Below, in pieces: positions 6,240-35,147 of a DNA stretch of 64,000 nucleotides (the stretch's first letter is position 1; each line of letters starts with the position of its first letter). This DNA is from Candidatus Competibacteraceae bacterium. Its GTDB lineage: Bacteria; Pseudomonadota; Gammaproteobacteria; Competibacterales; Competibacteraceae. The DNA is taken from NCBI GenBank assembly GCA_003989085.1, contig RXIV01000005.1:124001-188000 (forward strand), given 5' to 3'. The notes beneath the pieces are model-generated. The model was not told the DNA's origin and did no database searches. It worked only from the letters and a program-made list of their open reading frames with translations. Made by a program: the position numbers and the translations under genes.

Positions 6240-7736
6240 TCATGGGGTGACCTGCCGCCATTCATTTTCGTAGTAGCGCACCAGGATTTGGTTATTCAGC
6301 CGGTTAATTTCGGCGGCAACCGGGCTCATGTCCGGTGGGAACTGCAACAGCGTGGGCAGGAGGTCTGGCGTTACAAAGCGCAGACCGGGCGGATAGTGAT
6401 CCGGCGCTTGCCACGGTTGGCGGGTCGCCAGAGCAAAGCCCCATTCACCAAAGGCCGGGACATAGGCGTGATAGGGCGTGACGTTCAGCCCAACGCTCTC
6501 AAGGGTGCGGACGATGCACCAGAACGACTGGCGGGCGTACAGTGGCGAAGTGGTTTGCACCACCGCCGCGCCGTACGCCGCCAGCCGCTTTTCCAACAGC
6601 CGATAGAACACGTTGCTGTACAGCTTGCCCAGCGAATAATTACTCGGGTCGGGAAAGTCGACCACGATAAAATCAAACACGCCGGGATTTTCCTCCAGCC
6701 AGCGAAACGCATCAGCGTTGATCACGTTGACCTTGGGTGAATTGAGAGAATTGTTATTGATCCGGGTGAGCAAGGGGTGTTCGGCAAACAGCCGGGTCAT
6801 TTCCGGATCAAGATCAACCAGGGTGATCGATTCAATCGAGGTGTAGCGAAGGATTTCACGCACCGCCAGTCCGTCGCCCCCACCCAGCACCAGCGCCCGC
6901 CGTGCGCCTGGCGTTGCACTTAATCCCGGATGCACCAGCGCTTCGTGGTAGCGGTATTCGTCGCGGGAGCTGAATTGCAGGTTATTGTTGAGGAACAGTC
7001 GCAGGTCGTCTTTCCAGCGGGTAAGCACGATCCGCTGATAGGGTGAGCTGCGGGCCAGCACGATCTCGTCGGCGTAAAGATTCTCTTCGGCCAGCGCGGT
7101 GATCCGGTCGGCGGCGATGAACCCGGCAGTGAGCGCCACAATGGCGGCCAGACATTGACCGCGCAGCCAGCGCTGTTGCGGCAACTGATTGCGGAACAAC
7201 CACAGCGCCCAGGCTGCCACCAGCGTATTGAGCAGGCCAAACAGCAGGCTGGTGCGGTTCAGCCCTAGATGCGGAGCCAGCAGAATCGGAAACAGCAGCG
7301 ACACCGCCAACGCGCCCAGATAGTCGAAGGTCAGCACTTGCGCCACCAGATCCTTGAAGGCGAACTGCTGCTTGAGGATGCGCATCACCAGCGGGATTTC
7401 CAGCCCGACCAGGATGCCGATGATCAGGACCAGTCCATACAGGGTCGGGCGGAATGCGCCGCCCCAGGCGAAGATCAGGAACAGCGCCGGGGCGGAGAAG
7501 CCGCCCAATATCCCGACCGCCAGTTCGATCTGGACGAACCGGGCCACCAGTCCCCGGACGACATAACGCGACAGCCAGGAACCGATCCCCATAGCGAACA
7601 GGTAGCTTCCGATCACAGTGGAAAACTGGGTGACGGAATCACCAAGCAGGTAGCTGGCCAAAGCGCCGGCGATCAGTTCATAGACCAGGCCGCAGGAAGC
7701 GATGATGAAAACAGAGAAGAGTAGGGCGTGGGTCAT
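6240..7736 (-). CDS. Membrane-anchored spermidine synthase-like aminopropyltransferase
   Basis: A 498-residue two-part protein. The first 200 or so residues contain several hydrophobic membrane segments, including the tracts around LFSVFIIASCGLVYELIAG and LYGLVLIIGILVGLEIPLV. The remainder is a spermidine synthase (SpeE) fold with the nucleotide-binding motif VLVLGGGDGLAVREIL, the acidic VDLDPEM strand end and the catalytic-region segment VVDFPDPSNYSLGKLYS. SpeE enzymes transfer an aminopropyl group from decarboxylated S-adenosylmethionine to a diamine. Membrane-fused relatives are widespread and mostly uncharacterised, so the true substrate is uncertain. The gene diverges from mobA across a 134-bp gap. 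Confidence 0.85.
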   Translation of the reverse strand: MTHALLFSVFIIASCGLVYELIAGALASYLLGDSVTQFSTVIGSYLFAMGIGSWLSRYVVRGLVARFVQIELAVGILGGFSAPALFLIFAWGGAFRPTLYGLVLIIGILVGLEIPLVMRILKQQFAFKDLVAQVLTFDYLGALAVSLLFPILLAPHLGLNRTSLLFGLLNTLVAAWALWLFRNQLPQQRWLRGQCLAAIVALTAGFIAADRITALAEENLYADEIVLARSSPYQRIVLTRWKDDLRLFLNNNLQFSSRDEYRYHEALVHPGLSATPGARRALVLGGGDGLAVREILRYTSIESITLVDLDPEMTRLFAEHPLLTRINNNSLNSPKVNVINADAFRWLEENPGVFDFIVVDFPDPSNYSLGKLYSNVFYRLLEKRLAAYGAAVVQTTSPLYARQSFWCIVRTLESVGLNVTPYHAYVPAFGEWGFALATRQPWQAPDHYPPGLRFVTPDLLPTLLQFPPDMSPVAAEINRLNNQILVRYYENEWRQVTP

Positions 7737-7870
7737 AGGTATGGGATGGTGGTGGAGACGAACCTTTACAGCGAGCGCGAAGGAGCATGAGATGAGGGAT
7801 GATAACCCGCAACCCTGAATCCTGCGGATAGCCGATGTCCGTAGGCCAAGTTATCAACGGGAACATTGAT

Positions 7871-8530
7871 ATGGCGCTTATTTCATCTTTGACCGATCAC
7901 GCAAAGCGCTCGGATTCTTTAGCGCCTCCCCTCGCGGTGACCGGCGTTATTCTTGCCGGGGGCCGCGCCACCAGGATGGGCGGGCGCGACAAGGGCTTGC
8001 TACCGCTGGCTGGTGAACCACTGATTGCACATAGCATCCGCCGGTTGCAACCTCAAGTAGCGGAATTGCTGATCAGCGCCAACCGTCATCTGGCGTTTTA
8101 TCAGCAGTTTGGCTGCAGGGTGATCCGGGATAGCGAGCGCGGTTTTCGCGGGCCATTGGCTGGAATCCTGACCGCATTGCAGGCCGCCGGGACGCCGTAT
8201 GTCTTGACTGTACCTTGCGATTCGCCCCGGTTGCCGCCGGATTACGCCCGGCGCATGGTCGCCGCCTTGGCGCGGGATCAGGCGACTGTCAGCGTGGCCT
8301 GCTACGCGGGTGACTGGCAACCGGTGTTTGCCTTGCTGCCGGTCGCGTTGCAGGACGATCTGGCCCGCTATCTAGCGGCGGGGGAGGGCGGCGTCCACCG
8401 TTGGTTGCGGCGTCATCAGCCCGCGGTCGTAGCGTTTGCCGACAGACCACAGTGGTTTTGTAACATTAATACCCCGGACGATTTGGCGTGGCTGGAAGCA
8501 ACCTGGGGCAACGGGAGGAGTGAACCTTGA
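7871..8530 (+). CDS. mobA: Molybdenum cofactor guanylyltransferase MobA
   Basis: A 219-residue cytoplasmic enzyme that attaches GMP from GTP to molybdopterin, producing the guanine dinucleotide cofactor needed by NarG-type reductases. The signature GVILAGGRATRMGGRDKGLL near residue 25 is the nucleotidyltransferase GTP-binding motif, followed by VLTVPCDSPRLP and the C-terminal FCNINTPDDL, all typical of MobA. The ATG at 7871 is chosen because similarity begins shortly after it; an in-frame ATG at 7835 is possible, and the Shine-Dalgarno (GGGAA) is modest. It overlaps mobB by 4 bp, indicating translational coupling, and converges on the nar-moaA operon whose product uses its cofactor. Confidence 0.95.
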   Translation: MALISSLTDHAKRSDSLAPPLAVTGVILAGGRATRMGGRDKGLLPLAGEPLIAHSIRRLQPQVAELLISANRHLAFYQQFGCRVIRDSERGFRGPLAGILTALQAAGTPYVLTVPCDSPRLPPDYARRMVAALARDQATVSVACYAGDWQPVFALLPVALQDDLARYLAAGEGGVHRWLRRHQPAVVAFADRPQWFCNINTPDDLAWLEATWGNGRSEP

Positions 8531-26751: not shown

Positions 26752-27072
26752 CTAGCGGTTATACCAGCCGCCATGTCGGTTGTACCAACCACCACCGCCG
26801 CCATGCCGGTTATACCAGCCGCCATGTCGGTTGTACCAACCACCACCGCCGCCATGCCGGTTATACCAGCCGCCATGTCGGTTGTACCAGCCGCCAGGCC
26901 GGTTGTACCAAGCCTCGGCTGGGTCAGCGATGGTCAGCGCGCCACCAGCGACCACGCCGCCAATGACCGCCTGTGACCACTTGCCCAGACTGCGCAGAAA
27001 ATCACGCCGTTCCAGTTCGACAGGGGCGTCGCCAGTCATTTCGGGTTGTTGCTCGCCATGATGATCGGTCAT
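26752..27072 (-). CDS. grrA: GrrA-type Gly-rich RiPP precursor with seven WYNR motifs
   Basis: A 106-residue peptide in two parts. Residues 1-54 are a leader ending in a Tat-like export signal: ERRDFLRSLG, a hydrophobic stretch AVIGGVVAGGALTIA, then a signal-peptidase-like site PAEA before W55. The 52-residue core holds seven WYNR units separated by PGG, HGG or HGGGGG and stops directly after the last WYNR. Such Gly-rich repeat peptides beside a radical SAM/SPASM protein belong to the GRRM/GrrA type, in which an aromatic residue is linked to the residue two positions later as a three-residue cyclophane; here W-Y-N is the likely target. The ATG at 27072 follows GGTGGAG. The frame stays open upstream to 27258 without family features. 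Confidence 0.8.
   Translation of the reverse strand: MTDHHGEQQPEMTGDAPVELERRDFLRSLGKWSQAVIGGVVAGGALTIADPAEAWYNRPGGWYNRHGGWYNRHGGGGGWYNRHGGWYNRHGGGGGWYNRHGGWYNR
26755..26889 (-). repeat. 51-bp tandem repeat encoding the RiPP core
   Basis: The core contains two complete 17-residue units (WYNRHGGWYNRHGGGGG) plus an 11-residue partial unit, a 51-bp tandem repeat of about 2.6 copies. The copies are nearly identical at the DNA level, differing mainly at third positions such as ggttataccagcc versus ggttgtaccagcc. This suggests recent expansion by slippage or unequal recombination. Confidence 0.85.
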
Positions 27073-27306
27073 GTTTGCTCTCCACCTCATTTGCGTTTGC
27101 TTAATCAACGGTCTTTGGCTGTGAGTGAAAAATGTTATCCCGCTTGCAAGCAGAGTTGCCGCTTGCCGGAACAGCCCTCGGACGATAACACTGCCGACTG
27201 TGGGAAATAGTAGCTGAATCTGACCTGAAACCCCGCGAGATAGTCCGGGTTTTGTCAAGGGATATTAATCACGAATCACGGTTTATCCGTTACGCCGGGT
27301 TCCGGT
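27073..27306. other. Intergenic region between grrM and grrA
   Basis: The 234-bp gap separates the maturase stop from the precursor start, both on the minus strand. It is long enough for a separate grrA promoter, which would allow the precursor to be made in excess over its enzyme. I found no convincing terminator or operator. Confidence 0.4.
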
Positions 27307-28452
27307 TCAGGCTGCCCGGCGGGTTGCCACCGCCGCTTGCGCCAGATCGCGGGCGGCCCGTTGCATCCGCTCAAACAGCGCTTTGTACAGTTCGCAGTAG
27401 GGGTCTTTCTCAAAGAGCGAGCCATGCACGGTGTAGGTGCGCACCGGACAACCGCCGTGACAGAGCGCCAGATAGTCACATTCTAGGCAATCATGCTGGA
27501 CCAGGTGGATCGGACGCTGGTTGAATTGCTGACGGGCGGCGCTGGTTTTTAGCAATTCGCCAAAGTTGTCGCACTCGAAAATGTTGCCGTAGTGGTAATC
27601 CGGGTAGCTGGTGACCCAGCAATCGCATTGCGCCACCTGACCACGCGGGTCGATGGAAACCAAGGCGTTGGCGCAGTTTTCGCCCCAGATGCACGGCAAG
27701 GTCGCCGGTTCATAGCTGAAGTGGCGGAGCAGGGCATCAAACGGGCCGATGCTCACTCCGCGCCCGTGACCACGCTCCAGCCAGACCTCGGCCAGATCGA
27801 GATAAAAACGGGTGAGTTTTTCGACCTCCGCCACCGGCAGTTCTCGCTTGGCAGCCGTCGCTTCGCCACCAGGAAACGGGGTGTTGACCTGGAAATCACT
27901 AACCCCCAGTTCATCGGCGAAGTAGGCGTAGAACCGCTCGGCGCCGACTTCCAGCGTGGCCTGGTTGGGGACGGCAATGACCTGCACCTCGATGCCCGCC
28001 GCCCGGGCTTCCTGCACCCGCTGCCCCCAGATGGCGTTGTAGTTGTCCGGGGCTTGCCCCAGCAGTTTACGGTGGCGGTTAGGATAGTCCAGCGAGGTAC
28101 CGACGCTGTTGCCGAACATATCAGCGATCACCCGGTTCCAACGCGCGTTGTAGGCCAGCATGTTGCTTTGCAGGCTGTGAAAGACCTGTTTGCCGCGTAG
28201 TTCAGCCTCGCGCTGAATCAAGGTATGCGCCTGTTCATACCAGGTCGGCGGCAGCAGCATTGCCTCGCCGCCCTGCCAGTAGATGGTGAGCGAGGCCAGG
28301 GATTTCTCCACCATGTAATCCAGCACCTTGCGGATGATTTCGCCGAGCCGGTCTAGCGTGAGCCGGTCATCGCTCTTGATCTCGAAACAGTATTCACAAT
28401 CGGCGTTGCATTGCAGGGTGGACAGCAGAATCAGCGAGAAATGGCTTTTCAT
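27307..28452 (-). CDS. grrM: Radical SAM/SPASM maturase, GrrM type
   Basis: A 381-residue enzyme. The SAM cluster motif C15-x3-C19-x2-C22 lies in LQCNADCEYCFE, followed by IYWQGGEAMLLP (the GGE SAM-binding motif). The SPASM region near the C-terminus has CIWGENCANALVSIDPRGQV, CDCWV and CLECDYLALCHGGCP, ligands for two auxiliary 4Fe-4S clusters. GrrM enzymes modify Gly-rich precursors and are among the reported three-residue cyclophane-forming radical SAM proteins. The precursor gene lies 234 bp downstream. The start has no clear Shine-Dalgarno sequence; a dispersed repeat occupies the leader immediately before the ATG. Confidence 0.85.
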   Translation of the reverse strand: MKSHFSLILLSTLQCNADCEYCFEIKSDDRLTLDRLGEIIRKVLDYMVEKSLASLTIYWQGGEAMLLPPTWYEQAHTLIQREAELRGKQVFHSLQSNMLAYNARWNRVIADMFGNSVGTSLDYPNRHRKLLGQAPDNYNAIWGQRVQEARAAGIEVQVIAVPNQATLEVGAERFYAYFADELGVSDFQVNTPFPGGEATAAKRELPVAEVEKLTRFYLDLAEVWLERGHGRGVSIGPFDALLRHFSYEPATLPCIWGENCANALVSIDPRGQVAQCDCWVTSYPDYHYGNIFECDNFGELLKTSAARQQFNQRPIHLVQHDCLECDYLALCHGGCPVRTYTVHGSLFEKDPYCELYKALFERMQRAARDLAQAAVATRRAA

Positions 28453-28642: not shown

Positions 28643-30076
28643 TCAATCTGCCGGCGTTGTGGGTTTGACCGGCGGCGCCGTCATTTGCTCCGCCTGATTG
28701 ACCCAGCCACCACCCAACGCGGCGTACAGGCTGATCGAGGCGGTGTACAGCGTTCCCTGATCCTGCACATACTGGAGTTGTGCGGTATACAGGTTGCGCT
28801 CGGCGTCCACCACCGTTAGATAGTCGGAATAGCCGTTCTGGTAGCGCAAGGTCGCCAGGTCCAGAGAACGCTGCAAGGCATTGATCTGGGCCTGCTCATC
28901 CTTCAACTGGCTGCGCAGCTTGCTGATCGCGATCAGACTATTATCCACTTCGGCAAAAGCTTTCTGAATTACCTGCTGGTAATTTAACAGCGCCTGCTGT
29001 TGCACCGCCTCGGCAGCCTGCAACTGGCCTTCCAGCTTGCCGGCGGTAAAGATCGGCTGGGTCAGTTGGCCGGCGAACTGCCAGGCGTGCGATGGCCCGC
29101 TGAACAGATCGGATAGATCGGTACTGGCCACGCCCAGCAGGCCGGTGAGCGAGATGGCCGGGAAAAACGCCGCCTTGGCGACCCCAATCTCGGCATTAGC
29201 GGCGATCAACTGCTGCTCCGCCTGACGGATGTCGGGACGGCGTTCCAGTACATCGGAGGGCAATCCCGCTGGTGGTTGTGGCATCACCAGTCGATCCAGG
29301 TTCACGCCCCGCCTGATCGGGCCGGGGTTGCGTCCCAGCAACAGGCTGATGGCGTTCTGCTGCTGGGCGATCTGCCGCTCCAGCAGCGGCACTTGCACCG
29401 CCGCATTCTGGTATTCGGCTACCGCCTGCTGATAATCCAGCTCTCCGATCAAGCCTGCCTTGAAGCGCAGCCCGTTGATCCGCACCGACTCGCTACGGGT
29501 TTTCAGCGTCGCCTTGGTGACGGCCAATTGCTGGTCATAGTCGAGCAACTGCACATAGCTGTTCGCCACCTGACTGACCAGGCTCAGGATCACGGTGCGT
29601 TTAGCTTCCTCGGTCGCCAACAGTTGAGCGCGGGCGGACTCGGTCGCCCGGCGCAACTTGCCCCACAAATCCAGCTCGAACGACACGCCCAAATCGACCT
29701 GATAGCTGTCGTTGGTCAGTTCAGATCCCGGTGGCAGGGTGCTTTCACCGCTGCGGGTTCGCGATCCGGCGGCGTTCGCCCCGACCTGAGGGAACTGTGC
29801 GGAACGGATTACGCCATAGCGGCCCATGTACTCTTCAACTCGCGCCGCCGCGATTTTCACATCCTTGTTTTCCTGCAACGCAGTCTGGATCAGCCGATTC
29901 AGTTCCGGATCGCCAAACTGTTCCCACCAAGCGGTATTGGCGAGATCATTGGCGGCCTGGATGCTGACCTCCCACTGCGACGGGATGGGAACCTCCGGAC
30001 GCTGATAGTCCGGTCCGACGGCACAGCCGCCGAGCGCGAGGCCCAGCGCAACAGCCAGCAAGCGCTTACGCATCAT
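28643..30076 (-). CDS. RND efflux outer-membrane channel lipoprotein (OprM/NodT family)
   Basis: A 477-residue outer-membrane factor. The N-terminus is a lipoprotein signal with lipobox LGGC (ALGLALGGCAVGPDYQRP), followed by two repeated outer-membrane efflux domains. Typical pieces are GVSFELDLWGKLRRATESAR and PADVLERRPDIRQAEQQL-like PSDVLERRPDIRQAEQQL. It forms the trimeric tunnel through which the pump empties outside the cell. The ATG at 30076 overlaps the permease gene by 11 bp and follows AGAGG. It is the last gene of the RND operon. Confidence 0.93.
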   Translation of the reverse strand: MMRKRLLAVALGLALGGCAVGPDYQRPEVPIPSQWEVSIQAANDLANTAWWEQFGDPELNRLIQTALQENKDVKIAAARVEEYMGRYGVIRSAQFPQVGANAAGSRTRSGESTLPPGSELTNDSYQVDLGVSFELDLWGKLRRATESARAQLLATEEAKRTVILSLVSQVANSYVQLLDYDQQLAVTKATLKTRSESVRINGLRFKAGLIGELDYQQAVAEYQNAAVQVPLLERQIAQQQNAISLLLGRNPGPIRRGVNLDRLVMPQPPAGLPSDVLERRPDIRQAEQQLIAANAEIGVAKAAFFPAISLTGLLGVASTDLSDLFSGPSHAWQFAGQLTQPIFTAGKLEGQLQAAEAVQQQALLNYQQVIQKAFAEVDNSLIAISKLRSQLKDEQAQINALQRSLDLATLRYQNGYSDYLTVVDAERNLYTAQLQYVQDQGTLYTASISLYAALGGGWVNQAEQMTAPPVKPTTPAD

Positions 30077-33000
30077 GGCGATCATCCTCTTTCGGTGGGG
30101 TCGCCAAAGGCGTGGTGTTGAGCGTCTCGAGCCGCCGCATCAGGGTGTCGTCAAGACTGCCCAGTGTGGGCGTCACCGGAGGCGGGGCGTTTTCAACCGG
30201 AGCGGTAGCCAAAGTATCGAGCCGCCGCATCAGGGTATCGTCGAGACTGCCCAGTGCGGGCGTCACCGGAGGCGGAGCGTTTTCAACCGGAGCGGTAGCC
30301 AGGGTATCGAGCCGCCGCATCAGGGTATCGTCGAGACCGCCCAGCGTTGGTGTAGTCAATGGCGGGCTGATCTGCTCCGGGGGAACCGTCTCAAGGGCGT
30401 TTAAGCGCTGCGCTAGGGTATTACTGAGATCGACGGCTGTTGCCGAAGCGGTGGACGGCGGTGGAGCAATGTTCGGTAACATTCCACTTCCATCATTGCC
30501 ACTATTGCCACTATTGCCACCATTGCCACCACTTCCTTCCGTGGATACCGGTTTTTTGCCCTTCTCGCTTAATCCTTCAAACAGCCGGAAGAACATCGGT
30601 ACGAAGAAGATCGCCAGCACGGTGGCGGCGGTCATGCCGCCGACGATGCCGGTGCCGATGGAATGGCGGCTGTTGGCGCCGGCGCCGGTGGCGATGACCA
30701 GAGGAATCGCGCCGAGAATGAAGGCCAGCGAGGTCATCAGGATCGGCCGGAAGCGCAAGCGCGCTGCCTCCACTGCTGCTTCCAGTACCGGCATCCCTTC
30801 TTCATGCTTCATCACCGCGAACTCCACGATCAGGATGGCGTTCTTAGCCGCCAGCCCAACTAGAGTCAGCAACCCAATCTGGAAATACACGTCGTTCTCC
30901 ATCCCGCGCAGCCAGACCGCCAGCAACGCGCCGAACGCGCCGAACGGCACGGCCATCATCACACTGAACGGCAGCGACCACTTCTCATACTGGGCCGCCA
31001 GGATTAGGAACACCATGATTAGGCCATAGATAAACACCATCGCCGAATCACCGCCGACCTTCTTCTCCTGATAGGCTTGGCCGCTCCAGCCGAAGGAATA
31101 ACCCTGCGGCAGCACCTCGCGAGCCACTGCTTCCATGGTAGCCAGCGCTTGGCCGGAACTGTAACCCGGCGCGGCGCCACCGGTGACCTTGGCAGCGGGG
31201 AAGGTATTGAAACGGGTGATCAGATTCGGGGCGCTGGTGTATTCCAGCTTGGTGACCGCCGCCAGCGGCACCATGCCGCCGTTGGTCGAGCGTACGTAAA
31301 TCTGCTTGATGTCGTCGGGGCGGGAACGGTATTCCGGGGCCGCCTGCACGATGACTTGCCACACCTGGCTGTACAGGTTGAACTGGCTGACGTACAGCGA
31401 GCCGAACAGCGCTTGCAGGGTACCAAATACATTGTTGACCGGCACCCCCAGAGTGTTGGCCTGTTCGCGATCCAGGGTCACATACAACTGCTGCGAGGCA
31501 GCGTTGATGGTGGTAGTCAAGCCCCGCAATTCCGGGCGCTGGCTGGCCTTGGCGACGAAATCCTTGGTCACCTTCGCCAGTTGCTTGATGTCGCTACCGC
31601 CGCGACTCTGAATCCAGAACTCGAAACCGCCGGTGGTGCCCAGACCGGGAATTGACGGTGGGTTGAACACTAGGGCGATGGCCTCGCCGATGTGGGCGAA
31701 TTTCCCCATCACTTCACGGATGACATTCGGGGCGCTCTCTTTCGGATCCTTCCGCTCTTCGTAGTCCTTGAAGGACACAAATAGCGTGGTGTCGGTGGTT
31801 TTCTGCTGCGAATCCAACAGGCTATAGCCGTTGATCGCAACCACGCTACCGACCGCCGGATTAGCGCGGAAAATGTCGGTCATTTGCGTGGCCGCCGCCT
31901 CGGTGCGATCCAGGCTGGCGCCATCCGGCAGGATGCCCACCCCGAACACATAACCCTGGTCTTCATCCGGCACGAAACTGCTGGGCACTTTCTGGAACAG
32001 GCCATACGTCGCCGCCAGCATCACCGCGAACAGGGTCAGCCCCAGCAACACCCGCTTGGTGACAAAGCGCACGCTTTTGGCGTAGCCGCCGGTCAACCAG
32101 TCGAAGCCGCGATTGAACGGGCCGAAGAAGAACCGATACAGCAGATCGGTCCGCTGGTCGCCATGTTCGCCCGACTTGAGCAGCAGCGCCGCCAGCGCCG
32201 GACTGAGGGTCAAGGCCACCAGGCCGGAAATCGCCACTGAGATCGCGATGGTGATGGCGAACTGCTTGTATAACTGCCCGGTCATGCCGCCCAGGAACGC
32301 GACCGGCACGAACACTGCGCTTAGCACCAGCACGATGGCGATCACCGGCCCGGTGACTTCTTCCATCGCCCGATGCGCAGCCTCCTTGGGCGGTAGATGG
32401 AATTCCGCCATGTTGCGCTCGACGTTCTCCACCACCACGATGGCGTCATCCACCACGATGCCGATGCACAGCACCAGGCCGAACAGGGTCAGCATGTTGA
32501 TCGAGAAGCCGAGCAGGTACATTCCACTGAAGGTGGCGATCACCGAGACGATCACCGCCACGATAGGAATGATCGTGGCCCGCCAGCTTTGCAGGAAGAT
32601 AAAGACCACCAGGATAACCAGCACGATGGCTTCCAGCAGGGTATGCACCACCTCGTCAATCGAGGCTTTGACGAACTTAGTGGTATCCAGGGCGATGGAG
32701 TAGTCGATGCCAGCCGGGAAGCTCTTCTTCAGCTCCTCCAAAGTCGCCCGCACCTGTTTAGAAACCTCCAGGGCGTTGGCACCCGCCTGCTGGTAGATCG
32801 CGATGGCGGTGCCCACCTTGCCGTTGAAGCGGCTGCGCAGGTTATAGCTTTGCATCCCCAGGGTCACGTAGCCGACATCCTTGAGCCGCAACACGCCGGC
32901 GCCGGTGGAACTGGCGCGCAGGATGATGTTCTCGAACTCCTCCGGCGTACTCAGTCGCCCTTGGGTAGAGACCGGAAAGGTCAGTTCCACCGGCCCATTG

Positions 33001-33677
33001 GTCGGCGACTGACCGATCTGGCCAATGGCGAACTGCTGGTTCTGGGTCTGGATGGCGTTGATGACTTCGTCGGTGGTCAAGCCCAGGTCGCTCATCCGAT
33101 CCGGTTTCAGCCAGATCCGCATGGCGTAATTGGGAACGCCGAAGATGCTGGCCTGATTAGCGCCGGGAATTCGTTGCAAGGCGTTGAGCACATACAGGTA
33201 GGCGTAATTGCCGACATAGGTTTCATCCTGGCTTCCATCCGGTGAATAGATCGCGATCACCATCAGGAAGGTGGATGATTTGGTCTGGACCTGCACCCCC
33301 TGTTTGGACACCGCCTCCGGCAACTGCGGCAAGGCCAGACTCACCTGATTTTGTACATTGACCTGGGCGATATCGGGATCGGTGCCAATGTTGAAGAACA
33401 CGTTCAGATTCATGTTGCCAGTCGAAGAACTCGACGAGTACATGTACATCAGGTTGTTTACGCTGTTGACCTGCTGCTCGATGGGCGCGGCCACGCTTTG
33501 CGATACCACGTCGGCGCTGGCGCCGGGATAGGTGGCGCTCACCTGCACCTGCACCGGCGTGATGTCGGGGTACTGGGCAATCGGCAGCACGCCCATTGCC
33601 GACAGCCCGGCCAGGGTTAGAATGATGGAAATAACCGCGGCGAATACCGGACGGTCGATAAAGAAATGGGAAATCAT
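30066..33677 (-). CDS. RND multidrug efflux permease (AcrB/MexB family) with repeat C-terminal tail
   Basis: A 1203-residue inner-membrane proton-drug antiporter. The start MISHFFIDRPVFAAVISIIL and the later GLVLCIGIVVDDAIVVVENVERN (with the paired acidic residues of TM4) and VPVAFLGGMTGQLYKQFAIT are diagnostic of the HAE-1 subgroup. The usual length is about 1050 residues. The extra 150 residues begin with a Gly/Asn/Ser linker and then contain 30-residue repeats of the form LGSLDDTLMRRLDTLATAP plus a proline-rich spacer, predicted to be cytoplasmic. The gene lies between the adaptor and channel genes of the same operon. Confidence 0.95.
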   Translation of the reverse strand: MISHFFIDRPVFAAVISIILTLAGLSAMGVLPIAQYPDITPVQVQVSATYPGASADVVSQSVAAPIEQQVNSVNNLMYMYSSSSSTGNMNLNVFFNIGTDPDIAQVNVQNQVSLALPQLPEAVSKQGVQVQTKSSTFLMVIAIYSPDGSQDETYVGNYAYLYVLNALQRIPGANQASIFGVPNYAMRIWLKPDRMSDLGLTTDEVINAIQTQNQQFAIGQIGQSPTNGPVELTFPVSTQGRLSTPEEFENIILRASSTGAGVLRLKDVGYVTLGMQSYNLRSRFNGKVGTAIAIYQQAGANALEVSKQVRATLEELKKSFPAGIDYSIALDTTKFVKASIDEVVHTLLEAIVLVILVVFIFLQSWRATIIPIVAVIVSVIATFSGMYLLGFSINMLTLFGLVLCIGIVVDDAIVVVENVERNMAEFHLPPKEAAHRAMEEVTGPVIAIVLVLSAVFVPVAFLGGMTGQLYKQFAITIAISVAISGLVALTLSPALAALLLKSGEHGDQRTDLLYRFFFGPFNRGFDWLTGGYAKSVRFVTKRVLLGLTLFAVMLAATYGLFQKVPSSFVPDEDQGYVFGVGILPDGASLDRTEAAATQMTDIFRANPAVGSVVAINGYSLLDSQQKTTDTTLFVSFKDYEERKDPKESAPNVIREVMGKFAHIGEAIALVFNPPSIPGLGTTGGFEFWIQSRGGSDIKQLAKVTKDFVAKASQRPELRGLTTTINAASQQLYVTLDREQANTLGVPVNNVFGTLQALFGSLYVSQFNLYSQVWQVIVQAAPEYRSRPDDIKQIYVRSTNGGMVPLAAVTKLEYTSAPNLITRFNTFPAAKVTGGAAPGYSSGQALATMEAVAREVLPQGYSFGWSGQAYQEKKVGGDSAMVFIYGLIMVFLILAAQYEKWSLPFSVMMAVPFGAFGALLAVWLRGMENDVYFQIGLLTLVGLAAKNAILIVEFAVMKHEEGMPVLEAAVEAARLRFRPILMTSLAFILGAIPLVIATGAGANSRHSIGTGIVGGMTAATVLAIFFVPMFFRLFEGLSEKGKKPVSTEGSGGNGGNSGNSGNDGSGMLPNIAPPPSTASATAVDLSNTLAQRLNALETVPPEQISPPLTTPTLGGLDDTLMRRLDTLATAPVENAPPPVTPALGSLDDTLMRRLDTLATAPVENAPPPVTPTLGSLDDTLMRRLETLNTTPLATPPKEDDRHDA
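30121..30432 (-). repeat. 90-bp tandem repeat in the permease tail
   Basis: Three close copies start at about 90-bp intervals (near 30121, 30211 and 30301) and encode LxDDTLMRRLxTL followed by an alanine/proline-rich linker. A fourth, diverged copy (DLSNTLAQRLNALE) lies at about 30391-30432. Each unit contains a short probable amphipathic helix. Confidence 0.85.
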
Positions 33678-33688
33678 CGGGCGCCCTC

Positions 33689-34897
33689 TCAGGGTTTAAG
33701 CGGCGTGGCGCTAGGGACTTTCGCTGGCTCGGGTGCAGGCGCGGCGGCGGGCTTGATCTGCACCGGAACACCCGGTTGCAGCCGCACCGCGCCATCGACT
33801 ACCACCCGGTCGCCGGTTTCCAGCCCGGAATTGATGATCCACTGATCGCCGTACCAGTCTCCGACCTGAACCGGTTTCGGTTGCGCGGTATTGTCCGGGC
33901 CGACCACGAATACGAATTTACCGTTCGGCCCCTGCATCACCGCCACTTGCGGCACCATGATGGCGTTGGGCCGGAACGCACCTTTGAGTTGTACGCGCAC
34001 GAACTGGCCGGGGCTAAGTTGATTTCCTGGATTAGGCACCACAGCGCGGATGTTGTAAGTGCCGGTCTGCGCGTTGACTACCGGGTCCACGAAGGTGATC
34101 TGGCCCTTCTGCGGGTAGGTTGCTCCGTCGGCCAGGACGAGGTCTACTTGCACCTTGTCCAGCCCCGGTTTACTTAATTGTCCCGCCTCCTGCTGAGTCT
34201 TGATCTTCAAAACTTCGTTTTCGCCGACCCCAAAGTTGACCCACATCGGATCGATCTGGACGATGGTGGTCAACTGGGCGTTTTTACCGGCTGGCGTAAT
34301 CAGGGCGCCCTCGCGGAAATTGGCGCTGCTGGACAGGCCATTCAGCGGCGACTTGATGGTGGTGTAGCCCAGATTCAATTGCGCTGTCTCCACCTGCGCC
34401 TTGGCGGCCTGCACCTGTGCCTCGGACGTCAGGACGCCGGCGGTGGCGTTGTCCAGATCTTGCTGGCTGACCGCGTTTTGCTTGGCCAGCGGTTTGACCC
34501 GAGCCAGGGTCTGACGGGCGCGGGTCAACAGCGCCTCCTGCTGGGCTAGGTTGGCCTTGGCGCTGTCCAGCGTGGCCTGAAAAGGTTTGGGGTCGAGTTG
34601 GAACAGCAGTTGCCCGGTTTTGACCAGACTGCCCTCGACGTAGGCGATCTTGTCGAGATAGCCCTCGACCCGGGCGTTGATTTCCACTTGCCGGGAGCTA
34701 GCGGTCTTGCCGGTGAATTCAAAGGTCGCTGGGGTGTTCTCCGGTTTGATCTCGACCACGCTGACCGGAGTCGGGGGGCGGGACGCGGCGGGCGTTTGTG
34801 CGAGCGCAGCGGGACTGATAAGCCCCGCTGTTAGAGCCAGTGCTAGCCCGACGGCGATGCGCCTTGGCGAGGTCAGTGGTTGTTGTTGGTTATACAC
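33689..34897 (-). CDS. RND efflux periplasmic adaptor (membrane fusion protein, MexA/AcrA family)
   Basis: A 402-residue periplasmic adaptor joining the permease and the outer-membrane channel. A signal peptide ends near AALAQTP, the lipoyl-like halves are at INARVEGYLDKIAYVEGSLV and LNLGYTTIKSPLNGLSS, and the helical hairpin contains LAQQEALLTRARQTLARVKP. A GTG at 34897 behind GGGGAATTGACC is my preferred start; the 27-codon in-frame extension from 34978 lacks signal-peptide features. It is the first gene of the three-gene pump operon and lies 11 bp before the permease. Confidence 0.92.
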   Translation of the reverse strand: MYNQQQPLTSPRRIAVGLALALTAGLISPAALAQTPAASRPPTPVSVVEIKPENTPATFEFTGKTASSRQVEINARVEGYLDKIAYVEGSLVKTGQLLFQLDPKPFQATLDSAKANLAQQEALLTRARQTLARVKPLAKQNAVSQQDLDNATAGVLTSEAQVQAAKAQVETAQLNLGYTTIKSPLNGLSSSANFREGALITPAGKNAQLTTIVQIDPMWVNFGVGENEVLKIKTQQEAGQLSKPGLDKVQVDLVLADGATYPQKGQITFVDPVVNAQTGTYNIRAVVPNPGNQLSPGQFVRVQLKGAFRPNAIMVPQVAVMQGPNGKFVFVVGPDNTAQPKPVQVGDWYGDQWIINSGLETGDRVVVDGAVRLQPGVPVQIKPAAAPAPEPAKVPSATPLKP

Positions 34898-35147
34898 GGT
34901 CAATTCCCCATGGTAATGATGGCCTACAGGAGCCGTTCGCCATGCCTGGATCGGCCAGGCTGGTGCGGACCAGCCCACACCATAAATTTAAAGAATACTT
35001 GTTAAAGAATACGCGATCCGGTTAACAAATGGCGTTCCGGAAACGGGATGGCAATCCACCGCACCGGCTAAGCAATGGCTTTCCACGATGTTGCCCGATT
35101 TGCAGGCGGTTGGCCTACTCTGGACCCAAAAAAGCAGATAAAAACCG

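Follow-up and report, generated by a model that had tools for sequence, protein, structure and literature searches.

A radical SAM/SPASM maturase locus and a dispersed family of Trp-x-Asn repeat peptides with Tat-like leaders in Candidatus Competibacteraceae

Among the described formers of three-residue cyclophanes, XncB links Trp C6 to the beta-carbon of Asn by a C-C bond from position i to i+2, and OscB links Trp C7 to the beta-carbon of Asn or Asp, likewise from i to i+2 (PMC11002830). The motif of such strained cyclophanes has been named Aro-Xaa-Asn (PMC9062424). Sec signals on RiPP precursors are highly unusual, and use of the Sec machinery in the natural host has been shown for the bufferins only (PMC12452194). 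Literature searches on WYNR, on cyclophanes with twin-arginine, and on GrrA with GrrM returned nothing relevant. Here, we describe a locus in a 64,000-nucleotide stretch of DNA, referred to below as the window, from a 3.5-Mb Candidatus Competibacteraceae assembly (G000). In the reading that we favor and consider probable, it encodes the maturase of a RiPP family of Candidatus Competibacteraceae whose members are scattered over the genome, carry Trp-Asn cyclophanes, and are exported by Tat.

The preliminary description of the window had placed a SPASM radical SAM enzyme upstream of a small peptide. Both genes are indeed found there, on the minus strand, and the motifs of the enzyme are complete. 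The maturase gene (27307..28452) opens with an ATG and encodes 381 aa. The protein has no N-terminal extension; its CxxxCxxC motif begins at residue 15 and is intact on inspection of the sequence (C15-x3-C19-x2-C22). Against the SPASM pattern Cx9-15Gx4C ... Cx2Cx5Cx3C ... C, the signature is full, comprising C260-x10-G-x4-C276, C322-x2-C-x5-C-x3-C335 (cysteines 322, 325, 331, and 335), and C353. These cysteine motifs, together with a score of 50.9 bits on TIGR04085 (SPASM; cut-off, 27), place the enzyme in the radical SAM/SPASM superfamily. The Pfam SPASM model gave 14.7 bits, below its cut-off of 21.5, so that Pfam-based mining would overlook the maturase. The sole match to that Pfam model in the genome is another protein (L001, G000:C2:125491-125694). 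An AlphaFold model of the maturase (mean pLDDT of 75) has anSME as its nearest PDB fold (Foldseek E value of 1.7e-14). There is no sulfatase gene at the maturase locus, and a scan of it for promoters and terminators gave no signal exceeding chance.

The precursor gene follows at an intergenic distance of 234 nt (26752..27072, minus strand; ATG at 27072, stop at 26752) and encodes a class 1 peptide of 106 aa. A longer, TTG-started reading frame (from 27258, 168 aa) was rejected, as the homologs begin at the Met encoded by the ATG at 27072. We prefer this ATG as the start because the homologs share that Met and because a purine-rich GAGGTGGAG stands just upstream of it. The leader (26911..27072, minus strand; residues 1 to 54) contains an RRDFLR twin-arginine motif (26992..27009, minus strand; residues 22 to 27), a hydrophobic stretch, and an A-E-A sequence that is a predicted signal peptidase I site (26911..26919, minus strand; residues 52 to 54), directly before the first Trp. 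The remaining 52 aa form the core (26755..26910, minus strand) with its seven W-Y-N(-R) units, whose W-Y-N codons lie at 26902-26910, 26881-26889, 26860-26868, 26830-26838, 26809-26817, 26779-26787, and 26758-26766 on the same strand.

The preliminary description had counted seven WYNR core motifs in this peptide. The count is exact (residues 55, 62, 69, 79, 86, 96, and 103), and the spacers consist of Pro/His and Gly only, but the motif was drawn too narrowly, as the conserved unit is W-x-N. We compared 80 distinct homologous cores; a few of them are truncated by the end of a contig or locus, and some of these truncated cores are shorter copies of a gene that is also present whole. They contain 590 W-x-N units, which take in 80% of all Trp and 81% of all Asn residues, versus a mean of 79 and a maximum of 109 units in shuffled cores. 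The repeat is thus not due to chance, although repeats inside one peptide are not independent and the shuffle figure shows constraint rather than a count of evolutionary events. More telling is that the W-x-N pattern recurs in each of four precursor classes.

The middle position of the unit is free, with 15 different residues (Y 202, V 114, I 78, H 44, A 40, G 38, and also N, F, S, L, and T, among others). Arg follows 412 of the 590 units (70%), and counted from the core Trp residues, it stands at +3 in 60%, versus 80% with Asn at +2. For the roughly 20% of core Trp without Asn at +2, that position is mostly Gly, Trp, or Asp, with Asp, which OscB accepts as well, replacing Asn in 29 cases. As far as sequence conservation indicates, then, the fixed pair is Trp(i) and Asn(i+2), and WYNR is one local version of the broader W-x-N(-R). 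Because Trp and Asn are co-conserved around a free middle residue, a Trp-Asn cyclophane is the best prediction, and the pattern speaks against a Tyr-Arg link. The ring between Trp and Asn that had been proposed for each WYN is accordingly retained as a prediction, with XncB and OscB as precedents (PMC11002830).

The maturase reached none of the NCBIfam equivalog cut-offs. Its best single HMM match was anSME (TIGR03942), at 141.3 bits against a cut-off of 349. Its HMM relatives include many RiPP maturases, and among the models compared, with cut-offs in parentheses, DynA (NF041298) gave 133 bits (450), DarW 112 (650), DarE 93 (650), YhhB (NF041707) 41 (445), and FxsB (TIGR04269) 36 (370). As the best match is anSME, its kinship with the known cyclophane formers is weak. 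The link to GrrM made in the preliminary description did not survive comparison. The enzyme scored 87.7 bits on the GrrM/OscB model (TIGR04261) against a cut-off of 310, that model matched nothing in the genome at an E value of 1e-60 or lower, and identity to a true GrrM was 23%, a comparison that rests on one locus (L163, positions 1171-2661), a genuine GrrM locus of another proteobacterium whose enzyme scores 381 bits on TIGR04261. On the peptide side, the GrrA model (TIGR04260) matched neither the window precursor, nor the 17 class 1 precursors, nor the 3 other classes at an E value of 1 or lower.

The resemblances to described systems are thus partial. Like GrrM/OscB with GrrA/OscA, the window has a radical SAM maturase beside a repeated aromatic-x-Asn peptide, and the precursor at the GrrM locus also has a secretion-signal-like N terminus, ahead of a tail that reads FPNFPNF.... 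However, the enzyme there lacks the first SPASM cysteine pair, which is complete in the window maturase, and its precursor leader is Sec-like, whereas in the system described here the leader is Tat-like, the precursors are several and dispersed, and there is a partner protein. XncB/XyeB (TIGR04496) shares the Trp-x-Asn substrate and the C-C bond from i to i+2 (PMC11002830), which is here a prediction, but the maturase scored only 32 bits on that model against a cut-off of 450, and the XyeA-like precursor models went unmatched. In AmcB/AmcA (NF041718 and NF041721), as here, many rings are predicted per precursor, and AmcA weakly matches the window precursor; both scores are low, however, with 68.7 versus 425 bits for the enzyme and 11.6 versus 40 for the precursor. 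The bufferins offer a parallel of another kind, as their leader also serves as the signal for export, they have a partner protein, and in some genomes one enzyme pair goes with more than one precursor (PMC12452194), although their enzyme is an MNIO acting through Cys chemistry and their signal is Sec rather than Tat-like. Finally, anSME (PDB 4k36-4k39) is the best match by both HMM and fold and shares the domain arrangement of the maturase, likewise lacking an N-terminal extension, but the maturase falls far under the curated cut-off, and what accompanies its gene is a W-x-N repeat peptide and not a sulfatase. Membership among plain sulfatase maturases was rejected on that score, and we keep it as a rival reading only. 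With a radical SAM/SPASM enzyme and an aromatic-x-(Asn/Arg/Asp/Ser) precursor, the locus has the gene pairing of triceptides, whose C-C bond from the aromatic ring of residue i to the beta-carbon of residue i+2 is a prediction here, and by its likely mode of action, judged from these sequences, we file it as a triceptide-like RiPP variant outside every named maturase family.

The leader deserves attention of its own. The class 1 consensus is [QE]RRxFLRSLGKWSQAVIGGV, followed by a short hydrophobic run and by A-x-A or A-x-S directly before the first Trp. These features are conserved in alignments of 17 class 1 leaders and 15 leaders of classes 2 to 4, the latter having in common RRxFL, [KR]WS, and VI. 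RR is invariant in both alignments (A1 and A6) and FL nearly so, with A-x-A/S ahead of W; in the class 1 alignment (A1), A52 is invariant and residue 54 is mostly A or S. The hydrophobic stretch has a GRAVY value of 2.0. The leaders thus show the elements of a Tat signal ([ST]RRxFLK-like motif, short hydrophobic stretch, and A-x-A), with the residue before RR usually being E, not S/T. The Tat signal model TIGR01409 gave 13.8 to 14.1 bits with the window leader, under its cut-off of 16.7, and matched 9 of the 17 class 1 leaders at an E value of 1 or lower (best, 1.3e-4). TatC is encoded in the genome.

Judged by its residues, the leader resembles a Tat signal that signal peptidase would cut at A-x-A. 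The residues conserved beyond what Tat export calls for (GKWSQAVI) probably let the maturase or its partner recognize the leader. The preliminary description had pointed out that no dedicated transporter or protease lies beside the gene pair, which is incomplete as an account of export, since a Tat-like leader with an A-x-A site, in a genome with TatC, would explain why none is there.

An RND efflux operon (outer membrane factor, pump, and adaptor; 28643-34978) lies just upstream of the maturase, and orthologs of it (pump 59 to 96% identical) occur near the maturase or a class 2 precursor in six or seven genomes. We rejected it as a dedicated transporter, since it is absent from that place in most genomes, and keep it as a lead; its proximity could reflect a functional link or shared synteny. 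In about 15 genomes (L051, L044, and others), the region upstream of the maturase contains, in divergent orientation, a small lipoprotein-like gene and one for an envelope protein of 600 aa, a pair that is absent from the window locus.

The system is larger than first described: genes for three further precursors and for a SPASM-like partner protein lie at other sites of this genome. A leader profile search found four precursor genes in G000, on contigs C5 (the window), C8, C14, and C1, and genomes usually hold 2 to 5 scattered copies falling into four classes. Class 2 tails read WVNRYGGGG and usually stand behind a SnoaL-like secreted protein, an order kept at about 20 loci. The class 2 precursor of this genome (G000:C8:219570-219731; L095, 7361-8345) directly follows a SnoaL-like (SgcJ/EcaC) protein that seems to carry a signal peptide. 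Class 4 tails contain two cysteines and stand behind a membrane coiled-coil protein; the copy here (G000:C14; L096, 105-500) has the conserved cysteines in WNDC...GWTNRQGC, after a transmembrane coiled-coil protein, and the class occurs in 5 genomes. Class 3 tails (WGNRGGG...WVNLGGG...WYNRPWYNR) are encoded upstream of the partner, a SPASM-like protein of 270 aa. In G000, precursor and partner together occupy G000:C1:282968-284177 (L097, 6879-8181; partner at 7369-8181), and a patatin-like phospholipase/Omp85 gene lies divergently upstream of the two, an arrangement kept in about 22 genomes.

The one partner sequence searched had no Pfam match. Most of the 21 aligned members give weak SPASM signals, and the C terminus aligns with the region of the last SPASM cluster of the maturase (hhalign E value of 1e-4, probability of 57%). 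Partner and maturase genes are far apart in most genomes. One genome, however, has a compact operon of precursor, partner, and maturase genes in that order (G008:C28; L134, 4729-6244), which is cut by the contig end and in which the partner and maturase genes overlap by 4 nt (ATGA). This operon, together with the co-occurrence described below, makes it very likely that the partner cooperates with the maturase, even where it is encoded elsewhere. A role in leader recognition is a plausible guess, as the maturase has no N-terminal extension.

The preliminary description had named the absence of such a pair from related genomes as a ground for abandoning its proposal, a ground that the survey did not supply. 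Across 39 Competibacteraceae genomes, we found the maturase in 28, precursors in 30, and the partner in 29, with 7 genomes lacking all three. Fisher tests gave P values of 6e-4 for enzyme and precursor, 2e-3 for enzyme and partner, and 6e-6 for precursor and partner, in a set whose genomes are related and some of whose assemblies are incomplete. The maturase occurs once per genome, the close relatives that carry it being mostly named Candidatus Contendobacter or Competibacteraceae, and its orthologs are 78 to 90% identical across the family; many adjoin a peptide that shares the leader but ends in another repeat tail. A precursor adjoins the maturase in 14 genomes by sequence, in two by coordinates (G059 and G060), and in G008, and none was found beside it in 11 enzyme-bearing genomes, in a few of them owing to a split gene or contig end. 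Precursors stand without a maturase in G004, G014, G023, and G025, and a maturase stands without precursors in G035 and G036, which tells against the pairing; incomplete assemblies are the likely cause, but G014 is rated 99% complete.

Outside the family, the maturase had no match in 271 other genomes of the class (E value of 1e-40 or lower) or in 397 other genomes of the phylum (1e-30 or lower), and the partner was not found in the class sample. The only outside find was an acidobacterial contig (L042, 1-945) encoding a 53 to 55% identical enzyme with an in-frame stop, beside which no precursor was seen. Among the plasmid matches listed, enzymes were just 26 to 27% identical. Within what was searched, then, the system is essentially specific to Competibacteraceae.

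Taken together, these observations suggest the following course of events. In the cytoplasm, the maturase, probably with its SPASM-like partner, would recognize the shared leader RRxFLxSLG[KR]WS[QK]xVI and join each Trp indole to the beta-carbon of the Asn at i+2, with loss of 2 H per unit. This would give three-residue cyclophanes, up to seven in the window peptide and typically 5 to 17 in other precursors. The same leader would then act as a Tat signal, the cross-linked peptide would be exported, and signal peptidase would cut at A-x-A just ahead of the first Trp, so that a dedicated transporter or protease would be unnecessary. One maturase may in this way serve two to five scattered precursors of four conserved classes. 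As these classes are conserved across genera, a standing envelope or extracellular role is suggested rather than a fast-changing toxin. More tentatively, the maturase and partner may form a housekeeping-like stapling system, and not a classical natural-product cluster, that sets chains of strained Trp-Asn cyclophanes on scattered envelope or secreted peptides and hands them to Tat; this is a possible extension in which we place limited confidence.

It is also important to weigh what else the maturase could be doing. It may act on the precursors by other W-x-N chemistry, such as daropeptide-type Trp-Trp or ether links, epimerization, or some other oxidation. Its HMM neighbors DynA and DarW make other cross-links, anSME is an oxidase, and every model of a cyclophane former is far from its own cut-off. 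Still, the variable spacing of the units disfavors links between them, and Trp and Asn tightly paired around a free middle residue are what three-residue cyclophane formers are known to act on; we regard other chemistry as unlikely. The ring might alternatively close on Tyr-Asn-Arg instead of Trp-Tyr-Asn, from Tyr or His to Arg at i+2, as YhhB does when it cross-links Tyr-Arg and His-Arg (PMC11002830). Y-N-R is contained in WYNR and H-N-R in WHNR, a Tyr-Asn-Arg/His-Asn-Arg repeat family has been described (PMC9062424), and the maturase weakly matches YhhB. But that match is far off its cut-off, only 273 of 733 core Trp (37%) precede Tyr, His, or Phe, the frequent Val, Ile, Ala, and Gly cannot donate an aryl group, and Arg at +3 is less regular than Asn at +2. 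We rejected YhhB-like Tyr-Arg rings as the general product, since the middle residue is mostly nonaromatic and Arg is often absent, and give a ring on Tyr-Asn-Arg very little probability.

A further alternative separates enzyme and peptides altogether: the maturase would be sulfatase-maturase-like and act on an unrelated substrate, with the Gly/Trp/Asn-rich peptides being unmodified envelope proteins that are near it by synteny. The best HMM and fold matches, both to anSME, point that way, as do the precursors themselves, most of which are not beside the maturase. Yet the anSME score is far below its cut-off at a locus without a sulfatase, enzyme, partner, and precursors are correlated over the 39 genomes, the genes of the G008 operon overlap, and the leader invariants (KWS and VI) exceed the needs of Tat export. 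We hold this alternative to be distinctly improbable and return to the Trp-Asn cyclophane as the preferred reading.

If that reading is right, the maturase represents a cyclophane-forming lineage that current curated family models leave unnamed. The middle residues of its precursors, varied naturally hundreds of times, would be a ready substrate library for enzyme studies, and the leaders suggest that a RiPP leader may double as a Tat signal. What emerges appears to be a family of peptides that has not been catalogued, exported and stapled by predicted rings. Its conservation in Competibacteraceae, which are common in wastewater flocs, points to a role in the envelope or the extracellular space.
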